DNA from: an uncultured Actinomycetes bacterium | Lineage (GTDB): Bacteria; Actinomycetota; Acidimicrobiia; Acidimicrobiales; RAAP-2 | Length of the DNA stretch: 64,000 nucleotides | Assembly: GCA_903825035.1 (NCBI GenBank) | Contig: CAIJYV010000023.1 | Span: forward strand, 1 to 64,000 | Direction of reading: 5' to 3' | Part shown: piece after piece, positions 43,283 through 49,077 of the stretch | Position numbering within the stretch: position 1 is the stretch's first letter | Layout of the letters: each line of letters begins with the position of its first letter | The notes under the pieces: generated by a model | Databases searched by the model: none | Seen by the model: only the letters and a program-made list of their open reading frames with translations | Told to the model about the DNA's origin: nothing | Translations under genes and position numbers: made by a program

Positions 43283-44305
43283 ATGACTCAGCCCCTAGTT
43301 GACCTACGAAGTGACACCCTGACCCAACCCACTGCCGCCATGCGCGAAGCCATGTACGAGGCAGTTGTGGGCGACGACGGGTACGGTGAGGACCCGACCG
43401 TTGCCAAACTCGAATCCCTCTTCGCGAATCTGGTGGGAAAGGAGGCGGCAATTTTTGTTCCCTCCGGCGTTATGGCGAATCAAATGGCGATGCGGGTACA
43501 CACCCGACCCGGGGATGTAGTTATTTCCGGTCGAACCCAGCACGTCGTGGGATTTGAAATGGGAGCGAGCGCGGCGAACGCTTCAGTGCAGTTCAACTTC
43601 GTCGACGACGTCAACGGAGTCTTTAATCTTGAAGAGGTCGCTTCGGTACTCGACGCCCAGTTTGATCATCAGCCAACTATCAATTTAGTTTCGCTCGAAA
43701 ATTCGCACATGGCCTCTGGTGGGCGGACCTGGGCACCAGAACAAATCACCGCACTAAAAAAGGTCGTTGGCCCGTTACCTATGCACTTAGACGGCGCACG
43801 CCTCTTGAACGCTGCGGTCGCTCGTGGCGTGAGTCCCAAAGAATTCACCACCCACGTTGACACCGTCATGACCTGTTTAAGCAAGGGCCTGTGCGCACCG
43901 GTGGGTTCGCTGTTGGCCGGCTCTCAAGTTCTGATGGACCGCGCTCGCATTGAACGAAAGCGCCTGGGTGGAGCCATGCGCCAAGCTGGTTTTTTGGCCG
44001 CGGCGGGAATTGTCGCGCTCGACACCATGATCGACCGCTTGGCCGACGATCACGCTCGCGCCAAAGTATTAGCTGAAGCATTCGCCCAAAAGTTCCCTGA
44101 GTCCAACTACGACCCCGCAATCTGCGAAACCAACATCGTTTCTTTCAATCATCCCCAAGCGCGAAAGATTGTCGCACGGCTCGAAGAGGTTGGGGTGGCG
44201 GGTGGCACGGTGGCCCCACAGCGCGCACGCTTTGTCACCAGTGCTCTCGTGGATGATGCGGCCATCGAACGGGCCGTCAGCGCAGTTAAGTCTCTCCAGA
44301 TTTAG
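43283..44305 (+). CDS. ltaE: Low-specificity L-threonine aldolase
   Basis: A PLP enzyme that cleaves L-threonine or L-allo-threonine to glycine and acetaldehyde. The 340-residue protein has [33 protein letters not shown], the aspartate in [14 protein letters not shown] and the PLP lysine in [14 protein letters not shown]. The length is normal. It is divergent from the thioesterase gene. Confidence 0.93.
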
Positions 44306-44320
44306 AGAAATCATTGACAA

Positions 44321-44358
44321 TTCACCGAGTTGTCACGGTGAAGGCCAAATTTTCTTGG
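44321..44358 (+). terminator. Weak intrinsic terminator after ltaE
   Basis: TTCACCG (44321-44327) pairs with CGGTGAA (44336-44342), followed by GGCCAAATTTTCTT. A second pairing, TGACAA with TTGTCA, overlaps it. The stem is short and the T run distant. Confidence 0.4.
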
Positions 44359-44404
44359 GTATTTCAGCACTTTAGGGGTAGCCTTGAGGGGCTTACGAGC
44401 AACT

Positions 44405-45664
44405 ATGACTGAAATCCTGCACCTCTCCACATTCTTGCGTCGACCGATTTTTGACGCCGACGGCGACCGGATTGGTCGCGTCCAAGACCTGGTGGCTCGA
44501 CTGGGTGATGATGCGCACCCGCCAATCGTGGGAGCGGTTATTCGCATTGAGGGTCGGAATCTATTCGTGCCGATTCGCAAGATTGGCGGTCTCTCACAAG
44601 GCAAGGCCACCTTCGAAGGACGTCGAGTAGACCTTCGCCGCTTCGAACGCCGTCCCGGCGAGATGCTCCTCGCCGAGGACCTTCTAGCTCGCCACCTCAT
44701 CAACCTGGTGCGCGGACGCTTAATTACCGCCAACGAGATCGAACTCGCTGAGGTTAATGGACAGTGGGAGGTCGTGGGCGTGGACGCAGGCCGTCGCCCA
44801 CTGCTGCGTCGAATTCTCGGTTCTCGATTTGGTAGTCGTGTTAAGGCCGACTCGATCGTTGACTTTGCCTCAATCGAACCATTTGTTGGTCACGTACCTT
44901 CGGCTCGCTTGCGTATTCCGTATCGCAAACTCGCCAAACTCCACCCCGCCCAAATCGCTGACCTTGTCGAGCAGGCCAGTCACGAAGAGGGTGAAGAGAT
45001 TATCTCTGCGGTTGGCCTCGACCGCGAACTCGAAGCCGACGTCTTCGAAGAGTTGGACACCGAGCACCAGTTGGAGTTCATTGAATCGCGCACCGACATT
45101 GAAGCAGCTCGTCTACTGTCTCGGATGGAACCCGATGATGCCGCTGACTTGATTAATGAGGTCGAACAAGACCGTCGCTTGCCGATTCTTGAAAACTTGG
45201 CGGCCGATCAGCAGCAGAAGGTCCGCCAACTGCTTTCTTACAACGCCGACACCGCTGGCGGAATTATGAACACTGACTTTGTCACTATTGGCGAGACCGC
45301 AACGGTGGATGAAGCAATCGAAGCGATCCGAAAGTCTGACGCGCCCGCTGAATCAATTCACACGGTTTTCGTGGTCGATGGAGCGGGTATGACCGTGGGC
45401 GCGCTCGCCATTGGCCAATTAATCAAGGCTCGCGGCAACGACGTGGCGCTCGGTATTGCGAAGACTCAGATGGCCCACGTGCACCCCCATTGGAATGTCA
45501 TGCGGGTGGCACGCAAGATGAGTGACTTTAATCTCATGGTCGTGCCGGTGCTTGATGAGGAACACAACGCCGTAATTGGCGTGGTGACAGTAGACGACTT
45601 GCTCGAAGAGATGCTGCCCCAGGGTTGGCGTCGGGACTTCGGCGTGACCGCGGTGGAGGAATAA
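44405..45664 (+). CDS. Soluble PRC-barrel / MgtE_N / CBS-pair protein
   Basis: A 419-residue protein (start ATG 44405). Residues ~1-150 carry a PRC-barrel-like domain (RRPIFDADGDRIGRVQDLVA). Then comes the MgtE N-terminal superhelix (KLHPAQIADLVEQASHEEGEEII, FEELDTEHQLEFIESR, LSRMEPDDAADLINEVEQ) and a CBS pair (TADTAGG-like YNADTAGGIMNTDFVTIGET through VIGVVTVDDLLEEMLP). In MgtE channels this module senses cytosolic Mg2+ and gates the pore, but the MgtE membrane domain is absent: the protein ends after the CBS pair with no hydrophobic helices. The next gene is an NRAMP-like permease. A regulatory subunit role is inferred. Confidence 0.85.
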   Translation: MTEILHLSTFLRRPIFDADGDRIGRVQDLVARLGDDAHPPIVGAVIRIEGRNLFVPIRKIGGLSQGKATFEGRRVDLRRFERRPGEMLLAEDLLARHLINLVRGRLITANEIELAEVNGQWEVVGVDAGRRPLLRRILGSRFGSRVKADSIVDFASIEPFVGHVPSARLRIPYRKLAKLHPAQIADLVEQASHEEGEEIISAVGLDRELEADVFEELDTEHQLEFIESRTDIEAARLLSRMEPDDAADLINEVEQDRRLPILENLAADQQQKVRQLLSYNADTAGGIMNTDFVTIGETATVDEAIEAIRKSDAPAESIHTVFVVDGAGMTVGALAIGQLIKARGNDVALGIAKTQMAHVHPHWNVMRVARKMSDFNLMVVPVLDEEHNAVIGVVTVDDLLEEMLPQGWRRDFGVTAVEE

Positions 45665-45821
45665 CCGTGGTTAATCGTCTCGTTCTAAGGGGTGCTTTCT
45701 GAAACCCCCGAGTACCCCAAAATTTGTAGTGACACAACCAGGTAACGAAGCGCGCAAGTAGCCCTCCTCCGCACGTGGTTGTTTCGACCAACGACCACGA
45801 GCGAACGGAAGGAGGTGGCGC
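45665..45821 (+). promoter_or_regulatory. Structured leader that can bury the NRAMP-gene Shine-Dalgarno
   Basis: The full-length Shine-Dalgarno AAGGAGGTG (45809-45817) can be masked. CCTCCTCC (45763-45770) pairs with GGAAGGAGG (45807-45815, one bulged A), GC with GC, and the hairpin continues as CGTGGTTG (45774-45781) with CAA and CCACG (45789-45799, 3-base bulge). Upstream, GGGGT (45689-45693) can pair with either ACCCC at 45704-45708 or at 45714-45718. This is consistent with a metal riboswitch or other translational switch; no known class is recognised. Confidence 0.5.
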
Positions 45822-47405
45822 ATGTCGAACGAAGTAACCCAAGAAGCTCAAATTAAGGGAGCCTTTGGCACCATTGACACCCATGCGCCATCGGGTCGAC
45901 GCGGACTCAAGGCGAGATTTTTAACCCTCTTGGCCATCATCGGCCCCGGTCTCATCGTGATGGTTGGAGACAACGATGCCGGTGGCATCTCGACCTACGC
46001 CCAAGCGGGTCAGAACTTTGGCTACAGCCTCTTGTGGACTCTGCCGCTGCTTATCCCGGTACTGATTGTCAACCAAGAGATGGTGGCGAGACTCGGGGCA
46101 GTAACTGGTCAGGGTCACGGACGGCTCATTCGCGAGCGCATTGGCAAGCGGTGGGGCAATGTCTCGATCGGTTCAATTCTGCTTTTGAACTTCCTTATCA
46201 TCATCACTGAGTTCATCGGCATTTCCCTCTCTATGCGCTACTTCGGGGTGTCGCCCTACCTCTCAGTGCCTATATCGGTAGTTCTACTCTTCCTAGTGAC
46301 CGCCACCGGATCGTTCCAACGCTGGGAGCGATTCATGATGCTCTTCGTGGCGATTAACTTCCTCGTCGTTCCTTTGGTACTTCGCGTCCATGTCTCGACG
46401 CACCAGGTCCTGCACCACTACGTGAGTGCGGGAATTCGCGGGGGACCAACCTCAGCCGGAGTGTTGTTGATCATCTCGATCATTGGCACCACCGTTGCAC
46501 CCTGGCAGTTGTACTTCCAAGAGAGCAACATAGTTGACAAGAAGATTTCGCCCCGTTACCTCAACTACGAACGGGTTGACACCGTAATTGGTTCGATCAT
46601 CGTGGTGGCCGTCGCCACTTTGCTCATTGGCCTTACCGCTGCTGGGTTGTCGCATCACGGTGGCACCAATTCCTACACCGATGCACTGGGCGTCGCACGA
46701 GGTCTCGCTCACTACGTGGGCCGAGACACGGGCGCTCTGTTTGCCATCTTGTTGCTTAACTCTTCGGTGATCGGTGCTGCCGCGGTAACGCTCGCGAGTA
46801 GTTACGCAATGGGGGACCTATCGGGAAAACTGGCCCAGGGATTGAATACTCCGTTAAAAGAGGCCAAGGGCTTCTACGGAGTCTTCGCTGGCCTGTTGGT
46901 CGTTGCGGGCATTGTGACCCTGATCCCCAGTGCGCCTCTGGGACTGATTACCTTGGCGGTGCAGGCAATGTGCGGTCTCATGCTGCCGAGCACCACAATT
47001 TTCGTTTTGCTCTTGGCAAATGACAAAGAGACGCTCGGGCCGTGGGTTAACTCTCGAGCGCTCAACGCCCTGGCGGTCATCATCGTGGCCATCCTCGCCG
47101 TCTTATCGGTTGTGATGATGGTATCGACCCTGTTTCCATCGGCCCCGGTCTTGCCACTCTTGGAGTGGCTCGGAGCTATTGCGCTCATGGGCCTTCTGGT
47201 GGGTCTACCTATTGGACTGAGGCGAATGGGCCCGCGCCCGGAGTTTGGGGTTGACAAGTTGGACTGGCGCATGCCTCGACAAGCGTTGCTCGCACCAGCG
47301 CCTCGCACGCGGGCGCGAAAGATTCTCCTCGGGGTAACCGGAACCTACCTCGCGGTGGCGGGGACCTTGTTAGTTGTGCGCATCGTGCAGTTAGCGACCT
47401 CCTAA
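45822..47405 (+). CDS. NRAMP-related divalent metal transporter
   Basis: A 527-residue membrane protein with about eleven helices and the NRAMP/LeuT layout. In helix 1 the canonical DPGN metal motif reads GDNDAGGIST (D50, N51, D52), and in helix 6 the canonical MPH region reads VAPWQLYFQES, without the metal-binding Met. Such changes occur in NRAMP relatives that carry Mg2+ or other hard ions instead of Mn2+/Fe2+. Together with the adjacent MgtE_N/CBS protein this points to Mg2+ or a similar ion; that is inference. Translation starts at ATG 45822 behind a perfect but foldable Shine-Dalgarno. Confidence 0.85.
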   Translation: MSNEVTQEAQIKGAFGTIDTHAPSGRRGLKARFLTLLAIIGPGLIVMVGDNDAGGISTYAQAGQNFGYSLLWTLPLLIPVLIVNQEMVARLGAVTGQGHGRLIRERIGKRWGNVSIGSILLLNFLIIITEFIGISLSMRYFGVSPYLSVPISVVLLFLVTATGSFQRWERFMMLFVAINFLVVPLVLRVHVSTHQVLHHYVSAGIRGGPTSAGVLLIISIIGTTVAPWQLYFQESNIVDKKISPRYLNYERVDTVIGSIIVVAVATLLIGLTAAGLSHHGGTNSYTDALGVARGLAHYVGRDTGALFAILLLNSSVIGAAAVTLASSYAMGDLSGKLAQGLNTPLKEAKGFYGVFAGLLVVAGIVTLIPSAPLGLITLAVQAMCGLMLPSTTIFVLLLANDKETLGPWVNSRALNALAVIIVAILAVLSVVMMVSTLFPSAPVLPLLEWLGAIALMGLLVGLPIGLRRMGPRPEFGVDKLDWRMPRQALLAPAPRTRARKILLGVTGTYLAVAGTLLVVRIVQLATS

Positions 47406-47416
47406 CCTGTAGGACT

Positions 47417-48232
47417 GTGACTGTTACTAAAACCCTGGTGTGTGTGCACGCCCACCCCGACGACGAATCCCTCTTCACAGCCGGTATTACGGCGCACTAC
47501 GCCGAGCTGGGGTACAAAATTATTCTCGTGACCTGCACGAGTGGTCTCTTGGGTATTGACGACCAAAACCTACCCGGTTCAGCCGCCGGGCACCACCGCG
47601 AGTACGTACGTGCGACTCGAGCGAAGGAACTCCAAGAGGCCGCTCACCTAGTCGGCATCACTCGAGTTGTGACCTTGGGGTACGAGGACTCAGGACTGCT
47701 TGGGTGGCAGCAAAACTCGGCGCCGTTGGCTTTTATGAACTGCAACGTTGACGCGGTTGGTACGACCCTTGCCGCTCTCTTCGCCGAGGTCGGCGCGAGT
47801 GTCGTGGTGACCTACGACGAGAACGGTTTTTATGGACACCCAGATCACATCATGGCGAATCGGGTAACAAAAAATGCGGTAGCCAAGTCGCCATCGGTCG
47901 AGCGTCTCTACTATCCGGTGATGCCCTCAGACCTCATGGCCGAATTTGTTATCCGCGCTAGCGCGCAACAGGTTTCGTTGCCCAAGTGGGTAACCGACGC
48001 CAGTGTGGACATTGACCGTTCACTGATTTCAACGGTGATGGATGTTTCTCGGTTCTCAAGTCTGAAGCAACAGGCCATAGCTACTCACGCCTCACAGACC
48101 GATAACGCTGATCTGGTGACGATGAACCCCGAACTATTTGCCATGCTCTTCGGCACCGAGTTCTATCAGCGGGCCTTTTCAAAAACCCCTACCTCGGCCG
48201 ATAGTGCAGACCTTTTTGGAGGACTCTCATGA
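47417..48232 (+). CDS. PIG-L family N-acetylglucosamine deacetylase/amidase, copy 1
   Basis: A 271-residue zinc hydrolase of the PIG-L/MshB/Mca family. It has the zinc motif VHAHPDDESLFTAG, VTCTSGLLG, and the later GHPDHIMANRVT that gives the third ligand. MshB deacetylates GlcNAc-inositol in mycothiol synthesis; Mca cleaves mycothiol S-conjugates. Which applies cannot be told from sequence alone. Start is GTG 47417; the stop overlaps copy 2 (ATGA). Confidence 0.85.
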   Translation: MTVTKTLVCVHAHPDDESLFTAGITAHYAELGYKIILVTCTSGLLGIDDQNLPGSAAGHHREYVRATRAKELQEAAHLVGITRVVTLGYEDSGLLGWQQNSAPLAFMNCNVDAVGTTLAALFAEVGASVVVTYDENGFYGHPDHIMANRVTKNAVAKSPSVERLYYPVMPSDLMAEFVIRASAQQVSLPKWVTDASVDIDRSLISTVMDVSRFSSLKQQAIATHASQTDNADLVTMNPELFAMLFGTEFYQRAFSKTPTSADSADLFGGLS

Positions 48233-49077
48233 CCCAACTCACCTTTCTTGCGGTTCACGCCCACCCCGATGACGAGGCCAGTTCTACTGGTGGTCTCTAT
48301 CGACTTTTGGCGAATCAGGGCGTTCGCACGGTGTTGGTCACCTGCACGAACGGAGAGTGCGGGGATTCACCCACGGGAGCTAAGCCCGACGCCGACGAGC
48401 ATGACATGGATGAGGTGGCGGCGGTTCGAAAGGTCGAACTCGATAACGCCGTGGAAATCCTTGGAGTAAGCCGCTTGGTGCGTCTGGGTTACCGAGACTC
48501 TGGGATGATGGGATGGCCTCACAACGCGAACGACGGCAGCTTTTGGGGTACCCCCGTCGAACTGGCGGCTCGGCGGCTCGCCGATATCTTGCTAGAAGAG
48601 CGCCCGCAGGTCATTGTCACCTATAACGAAATTGGCTTTTATGGTCACCCTGACCACATCCAAGCCAACCGAATTACCTTGGCGGCGCTTGAACTGTTGG
48701 ACTACGAACCAACCCTTTATTACAACGCCATTCCCGACTCGGTCTTCGCCGAGATGCGCAAACGTTGGGAAGAAGAGGACGAAGCTCGTCGTGAAGAGGG
48801 CAAAACCTCATCGGCCCTCGAAGAGGTCGAAGAGGAGATCCCCGAGCAAATGAGCACGCCCGATGACCAAATTTCGGCCGCGATTGACATCAGCGCGGTC
48901 AACAGCGTGAAGTTTGACGCTCTCGCAGCCCACGCCTCACAGATTGCCGACTCCTTCTGGATGAAGATGGGTCGTGAAGCGTTCTGTGAGACCAACAAGA
49001 CGGAATGGTTTTTGCGCGTGACGAACCCCCAAAAAATTGATGGTTTAGTCACCGACCTCTTTGCCGGTTATCGCTAA
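48229..49077 (+). CDS. PIG-L family deacetylase/amidase, copy 2 (MshB/Mca-like)
   Basis: A 282-residue paralogue of the upstream gene, translationally coupled to it. It has VHAHPDDEASSTGG, VTCTNGECGDSP, the RLGYRDSGMMGW stretch shared with mycothiol enzymes and GHPDHIQANRIT. A charged insertion (EEEDEARREEGKTSS, EEVEEEIPEQM) precedes the C-terminal region HASQIADSFWMKM. The GYRDSGM motif favours the MshB/Mca branch. Together the pair suggests a mycothiol-type thiol pathway. Confidence 0.87.
   Translation: MTQLTFLAVHAHPDDEASSTGGLYRLLANQGVRTVLVTCTNGECGDSPTGAKPDADEHDMDEVAAVRKVELDNAVEILGVSRLVRLGYRDSGMMGWPHNANDGSFWGTPVELAARRLADILLEERPQVIVTYNEIGFYGHPDHIQANRITLAALELLDYEPTLYYNAIPDSVFAEMRKRWEEEDEARREEGKTSSALEEVEEEIPEQMSTPDDQISAAIDISAVNSVKFDALAAHASQIADSFWMKMGREAFCETNKTEWFLRVTNPQKIDGLVTDLFAGYR

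Follow-up and report, generated by a model that had tools for sequence, protein, structure and literature searches.

Pairs of an NRAMP-related permease and a soluble homologue of the MgtE N domain have been described before. Shin et al. 2014 named the permeases NrmT, found that most members adjoin an MgtE-N-like gene and proposed cytoplasmic feedback regulation or a chaperone role for the MgtE-like protein (PMC4072509). Proteins of the same kind, termed NRMT, are defined by the motifs DxxG and TxxA/T, which replace DxxN and A/CxxM, and the member from Eggerthella lenta, EleNRMT, transports both Mg2+ and Mn2+ in liposomes, with no sensor present and no proton coupling (PMC8806188). Here we analyse a pair of this kind in a stretch of 64,000 nucleotides from an uncultured actinobacterium of the order Acidimicrobiales (contig CAIJYV010000023.1, positions 1 to 64,000), referred to below as the window. 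We read it as an NRMT-type Mg2+ importer and a detached, soluble Mg2+ sensor of the MgtE type that together form one uptake unit, and we put the probability of this reading at about 0.6.

The permease has the Pfam match expected of an NRAMP relative (Table 1), and its score of 94.6 bits against the MntH model, where the cut-off is 430 bits, places it outside MntH. It carries DNDAGG and TTVAPW rather than the DPGN and MPH of MntH, the metal-site motifs being D52-A-G-G55 in transmembrane segment TM1 and T223-T-V-A226-P-W228 in TM6. A preliminary description of this DNA had singled out the two deviations, DNDAGG for DPGN and APW for MPH; both are present as described and, because they fit the published definition (PMC8806188), they are the known NRMT signature. 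The same signature runs through the permeases that are paired with related sensors: the Asp of DxxG is found in 71/71 and the Gly in 67/71, the Thr of TxxA/T in 71/71 with Ala in 57 or Thr in 10 at its last position, and the position of the NRAMP His is occupied by Trp or Tyr in all 71 (W228 in the window, as in EleNRMT). Thr224 of EleNRMT, which serves Mg2+ binding, also has its equivalent in the window permease (PMC8806188). EleNRMT (7qia) is the nearest solved structure, with an E-value of 1.7e-63 compared with 1.2e-21 or weaker for the remaining NRAMP structures, and in a quick tree, with long branches and few outgroups, the paired permeases and EleNRMT stand apart from Bfra and Dra Nramp. 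We assign the permease to NRMT on this metal-site signature and sequence closeness. A metal site that differs in this way from the Mn/Fe type would accept largely hydrated Mg2+, and import would probably proceed without proton coupling.

The product of the upstream gene consists of tandem PRC barrels (residues ~1-160), an MgtE_N superhelix (~173-277) and a CBS pair (~284-403). The MgtE_N domain is matched in Pfam at residues 179-281 with an E-value of 6.8e-20 and the two CBS domains with 5.5e-17. No transmembrane segment is predicted in the protein, and the MgtE membrane domain PF01769 was found neither in it nor anywhere in the source genome, so that it is not an MgtE channel. The PRC family PF05239 falls below threshold in the window sensor alone (E 0.0019) and is matched by 52 of 73 sensor homologues (best 4e-9). 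When the N-terminal 168 residues were folded alone, their best match was the archaeal tandem-PRC protein CdpB1/CdpB2 (8qzo, Z 11.3 over 128 residues), with single PRC barrels as weaker fold matches. The family matches among the homologues and the fold match together indicate that the PRC assignment is right and that two barrels are present. The domain content given in the preliminary description (MgtE_N, CBS pair and PRC barrel, with no membrane domain) is thus confirmed. A phosphofructokinase match below the Pfam cut-off (E 6e-4) occurred in only one of the 73 family members and was rejected. Literature searches for a PRC barrel with MgtE, or for MgtE, NRAMP, CBS and PRC together, found nothing.

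The AlphaFold2 model of the sensor, based on the 73 homologues, has a mean pLDDT (predicted local distance difference test) of 91.6. Residues ~174-408 resemble the cytosolic domain of MgtE, superimposing on its Mg2+-bound form (2yvy) with Z 20.4 and a root-mean-square deviation of 2.5 over 243 residues; MgtE structure 8gpv gives Z 21.5, and the ATP-bound cytosolic structure 5x9g is also among the top matches. Only a short remnant of the plug helix is present, because the chain ends soon after the second CBS domain.

In T. thermophilus MgtE the cytosolic Mg2+ ions are bound by D91 and D247 (Mg4), D226 and D250 (Mg5), D95 (Mg6) and E59 (Mg7), acids that are required for closure or for Mg2+-induced changes, while the plug-helix residues E258 and D259 are ligands for Mg2 and Mg3 (PMC5882242). 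In an alignment of 119 sensors, Asp is found in all at the positions equivalent to E59 and D247 and in 118 at that of D91; Asp or Glu is found in all at the position of D95 and in 116 at that of D250. The equivalent of D226, the other Mg5 ligand, is Asn in 89, and conservation at those of D214 and E216 is inconsistent. Judged from this alignment, the sensors retain the sites that link the N domain to the CBS/plug region and lose those near the pore. Loss of D214 and E216, like truncation of the plug helix, is expected for a sensor freed from its pore. With the MgtE_N domain, the CBS pair and the ligand acids all present, we assign this part of the protein as a predicted cytosolic Mg2+-sensor domain of the MgtE type. 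When cytosolic Mg2+ is ample, it would bind where the N superhelix faces the CBS/plug region and bring the sensor into a compact, closed state, as in MgtE. The closed sensor would then most likely lower the activity of the neighbouring permease through direct contact, for which the PRC barrels could act as docking or oligomerisation modules.

Adjacency of the two genes is strongly conserved and is no chance arrangement. Nearly all of 36 genus mates have the sensor followed by the permease on the same strand, with a gap of mostly ~150-200 bp. A genome-wide scan with the sensor alignment gave 80 named loci from several phyla, and in 71 of these the permease lies on the same strand at most 700 bp from the sensor, although this proportion is biased upward because the ranking reference was itself a permease-paired sensor. 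The permease is downstream of the sensor in 67 of the paired loci and upstream in 4. It lies 2.6 kb off in one of the remaining nine loci and is missing from eight, two of which reach a contig end. Sensor and permease distances are correlated (r 0.87, 68 pairs); no correction for species phylogeny was applied, and the value is not counted as evidence of contact. The preliminary description had held that a lack of conserved adjacency would refute its idea of a transport system split in two, with a detached sensor acting on a permease of another fold, and the counts run the other way. Its claim to novelty (it knew of no worked-out pair like this) does not stand, since both the pairing and the feedback proposal are found in the 2014 study (PMC4072509).

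A link to magnesium is provided by the upstream regions of related operons. A scan of 45 named loci found M-box riboswitches in seven, upstream of sensor-first operons in L153 (Mycolicibacterium sphagni), L163 (Desulfosporosinus), L149 and L156, and of permease-first operons in L137, L146 and L158. An M-box 5' of a 'manganese/iron transporter' has been reported in M. avium (PMC3774663). Neither CorA, an MgtE channel nor MgtA was detected in the source genome (1.42 Mb; assembly 96.5% complete), and the NRMT is therefore the only dedicated Mg2+ importer found there. In the window genus MgtE is present in 0 of 37 genomes, and 3 of 36 mates have a CorA that scores above cut-off. The order was also compared at family level: of 25 lineages, 5 have the pair, and CorA and MgtE are both missing in 4 of these, compared with 3 of the 20 without it (Fisher p 0.012), two of the three pair-less genomes being only 70-80% complete. 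This lineage probably takes up Mg2+ mainly through the pair, and Mg2+ would be the physiological substrate of the permease.

It has to be considered whether the permease is mainly an importer of Mn2+, or of divalent ions broadly, with a sensor that responds to Mn2+ or a nucleotide instead of Mg2+. The results of Shin et al. 2014 make Mn2+ a real alternative substrate: the Acidobacterium capsulatum NrmT, which adjoins an MgtE-like gene, fully rescued a Mn2+-transport mutant and rescued for Mg2+ only at low millimolar Mg2+ (PMC4072509). EleNRMT likewise carries Mn2+, and does so with no sensor (PMC8806188); Mn2+ transport independent of the CBS protein, which the preliminary description named as a second refuting outcome, may therefore apply to the window permease too. 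No second NRAMP gene was found in the source genome. CBS pairs often bind adenine nucleotides, and ATP-bound 5x9g is among the top fold matches. Against this stand the M-boxes 5' of several related pairs, the NRMT signature at the metal site, and the tendency of CorA and MgtE to be missing where the pair occurs (Mn/Zn ABC importers lay outside that search), and we consider a Mn2+ or broad divalent importer unlikely.

Several related sensors have neighbours of other kinds. In L062 (3716-4255), L065 (3762-4325) and L176 (1290-1820) a gene for a DUF1003 membrane protein directly follows a PRC-MgtE_N-CBS sensor; a literature search for DUF1003 with magnesium found nothing. In two Acidobacteriota loci, L114 (5225-5926) and L116 (5225-5893), a DNA alkylation repair gene lies immediately 3' of the sensor, with no transporter there, and MgtC is found near a related sensor in L138. 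About 0.6 kb downstream of the sensor in L064 (2416-3687) is a 424-residue tandem PF01769 protein with no N or CBS domains, by its domain content a pore-only MgtE with a detached sensor.

Such associations bear on a second alternative, that the sensor does not gate the permease and is a PRC scaffold, a metal chaperone or another regulator, co-transcribed because both genes respond to Mg2+ status. Sensors next to DUF1003 or DNA alkylation repair genes, or near MgtC, would fit this, as would the occurrence of PRC barrels in RimM and the archaeal CdpB proteins. The NRMT neighbour in most loci and the pore-only MgtE neighbour both suit a transporter regulator, however, and the MgtE-like Mg2+ sites are kept, so that we find this alternative rather doubtful. 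Other observations, together with the Mn2+ rescue, weigh against a sensor-controlled Mg2+ importer. Isolated NRMTs function without a sensor, and second NRMT copies in L076 and L077, 45% identical to the window permease, have no adjoining sensor. Co-expression of the A. capsulatum MgtE-like protein brought no gain in the rescue of a Mg2+-transport mutant (PMC4072509). The source genome contains one CNNM/CorC-type gene and its assembly is 96.5% complete, and the conserved Asp residues of the sensors might be retained for folding. The split system of the preliminary description nevertheless fits the adjacency, the ligand acids, the M-boxes and the complementarity with CorA and MgtE; what falls away is its novelty (PMC4072509), and that the sensor gates the permease is the part that we infer.

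The intergenic region holds an unexpected part of the locus, a leader absent from the preliminary description. Its core follows the consensus GTTC[TA]AAGGGGG-N5-6-CTGAAACCCCC-N-AGTACC and includes a stem, P2, in which 45689-45692 pairs with 45705-45709; the window genome has lost one pair out of the five. With a covariance model of the core, a single copy was detected in each of 75 out of 77 genus genomes, and two sister-genus genomes also matched; the core is further present in L120, L134 and, weakly, L132, and lies between sensor and permease in each case checked. Strong matches across 248 genomes of the order are restricted to the family of the window, those elsewhere (E ~0.03) being judged chance. 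No Rfam match was found for the leader of the window or those of its relatives, and neither the M-box (RF00380) nor any other Rfam family matched 44250-47500 up to E 1. The leader is a real conserved cis-element. At the base of a hairpin downstream of the core, CCTCC pairs with the GGAGG of the Shine-Dalgarno (SD) sequence. In 33 leaders the last ~80 nucleotides fold with a mean z of -2.7 compared with upstream shuffles, and the SD positions are paired in 87%, as against 71% in shuffles.

In L074, L075 and L083 a more distant NRMT (54-60% identity) lies further downstream while the leader still adjoins the sensor, and L074 retains a start-like remnant along with the leader. From these sequences it looks as if the permease had been replaced in place.

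These features make the leader a reasonable, as yet unproven regulatory-RNA candidate, and such a structured leader would probably add control over permease translation. More specifically, 45673-45815 may be a cis-regulatory RNA of a class not yet described, with Mg2+ as the most plausible signal, that controls translation of the permease by masking its ribosome binding site, a proposal that we advance tentatively and think rather unlikely in this full form. The element could instead be an operator in the DNA or a signal for mRNA processing, though we put this short of an even chance. Such a role would suit a core stem that is a short, nearly invariant dyad, in which changes on both sides are confined to a single pair out of five (three sequences with A-U for G-C), and a consensus fold (RNAalifold on a MAFFT alignment, 11 pairs) with only two helices supported and almost no covariation. 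A further hairpin, P3, is inconsistent (mean z -0.67), being strong in L089, L090, L132, L042 and L080 and weak in many others, and was dropped as a universal element; a closing P1 stem was also dropped, single-sequence folds not being uniform. The conservation, however, is asymmetric, covering the loop TGAAA and the 3' flank AGTACC and not both half-sites, and L079 and L120 carry GGAGG/CCTCC in place of GGGGG/CCCCC. Most leaders also have, 3' of the core, a stable hairpin able to mask the SD. These points argue against such an operator or signal.

Table 1. Features of the sensor-permease locus, in window coordinates.
Feature	Position	Strand	Details and basis
Soluble sensor gene (open reading frame A)	44405..45664	+	419 aa; Pfam, AlphaFold2 model, fold matches
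Codons D212, D244, D248	45038..45148	+	Equivalent to T. thermophilus MgtE E59 (Mg7), D91 (Mg4), D95 (Mg6); alignment
Codons 398-401	45596..45607	+	D398 equivalent to MgtE D247 (Mg4), E401 to D250 (Mg5); alignment
Leader core	45673..45719	+	GTTCTAAGGGG..CTGAAACCCCC.AGTACC; R1 match 54.6 bits; alignments A1/A2
SD-masking hairpin (putative)	45762..45815	+	Anti-SD CCCTCCTCC 45762-45770; stem 45774-45783 with 45790-45799; SD AGGAGG 45810-45815; folds
NRMT-type NRAMP permease gene (open reading frame B)	45822..47405	+	527 aa; PF01566 E 5e-68

The gap between the two genes is 157 bp, and the ATG start of the sensor gene is also kept in relatives. The closest named record is L124, from an uncultured actinobacterium (95% identity for the sensor, 92% for the permease), and the next-closest are mostly metagenome-assembled genomes of Acidimicrobiaceae. 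Two consecutive genes for MshB/Mca-type PIG-L deacetylases, neither of which reaches the curated cut-offs, follow the permease at 47417-49077, and PIG-L-like genes are similarly placed in some relatives.

If the sensor does gate the NRAMP-fold permease, a single Mg2+ sensor module would regulate unrelated membrane folds. The pore-only MgtE and DUF1003 neighbours point to a portable regulator, from which a testable Mg2+-related role for DUF1003 follows, and a lineage with no detected CorA, MgtE or MgtA offers a clean setting for testing what the sensor does. With the leader there is also a tangible candidate for a new regulatory RNA linked to Mg2+; if it acts as one, it would fill, in this Acidimicrobiaceae-like lineage, the role played by the M-box for this operon in Mycolicibacterium and Clostridia, and uptake would be controlled twice, once by RNA and once by a detached protein sensor. 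What is added here is the adjacency across several phyla, the NRMT signature of the permease, the retained ligand acids, the M-box upstream of related pairs, the lack of any detected CorA, MgtE channel or MgtA in the source genome, and the undescribed leader in this lineage.

Compared with known systems, the first 160 residues of the sensor find their best fold match in CdpB1/CdpB2 (8qzo), although identity is only 16% and the match is restricted to the PRC part. The rest shares the MgtE_N and CBS fold of the MgtE channel cytosolic domain (2yvy, 2zy9, 5x9g, 8gpv) and keeps its Mg4, Mg6 and Mg7 acids, but has no membrane pore, a truncated plug helix and added tandem PRC barrels, with D226 mostly replaced by Asn. 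EleNRMT (7qia) is the closest solved permease and shares DxxG/TxxA and APW in place of MPH, whereas the window permease has a C terminus ~90 residues longer, with an extra hydrophobic segment, and is paired with a sensor, EleNRMT having been studied without one (PMC8806188). The pair of Shin et al. 2014 likewise combines an NRAMP-related permease with a soluble MgtE N-domain homologue and rests on the same feedback idea; the PRC barrels found in the window sensor go unmentioned in the passages considered (PMC4072509). The M-box (ykoK, RF00380) lies 5' of related sensor-NRMT operons, among them those of Mycolicibacterium and Desulfosporosinus, whereas the window pair, differing in this also from the pair of 2014 as described in those passages, has in place of an M-box its own conserved and previously undescribed leader between the two genes.

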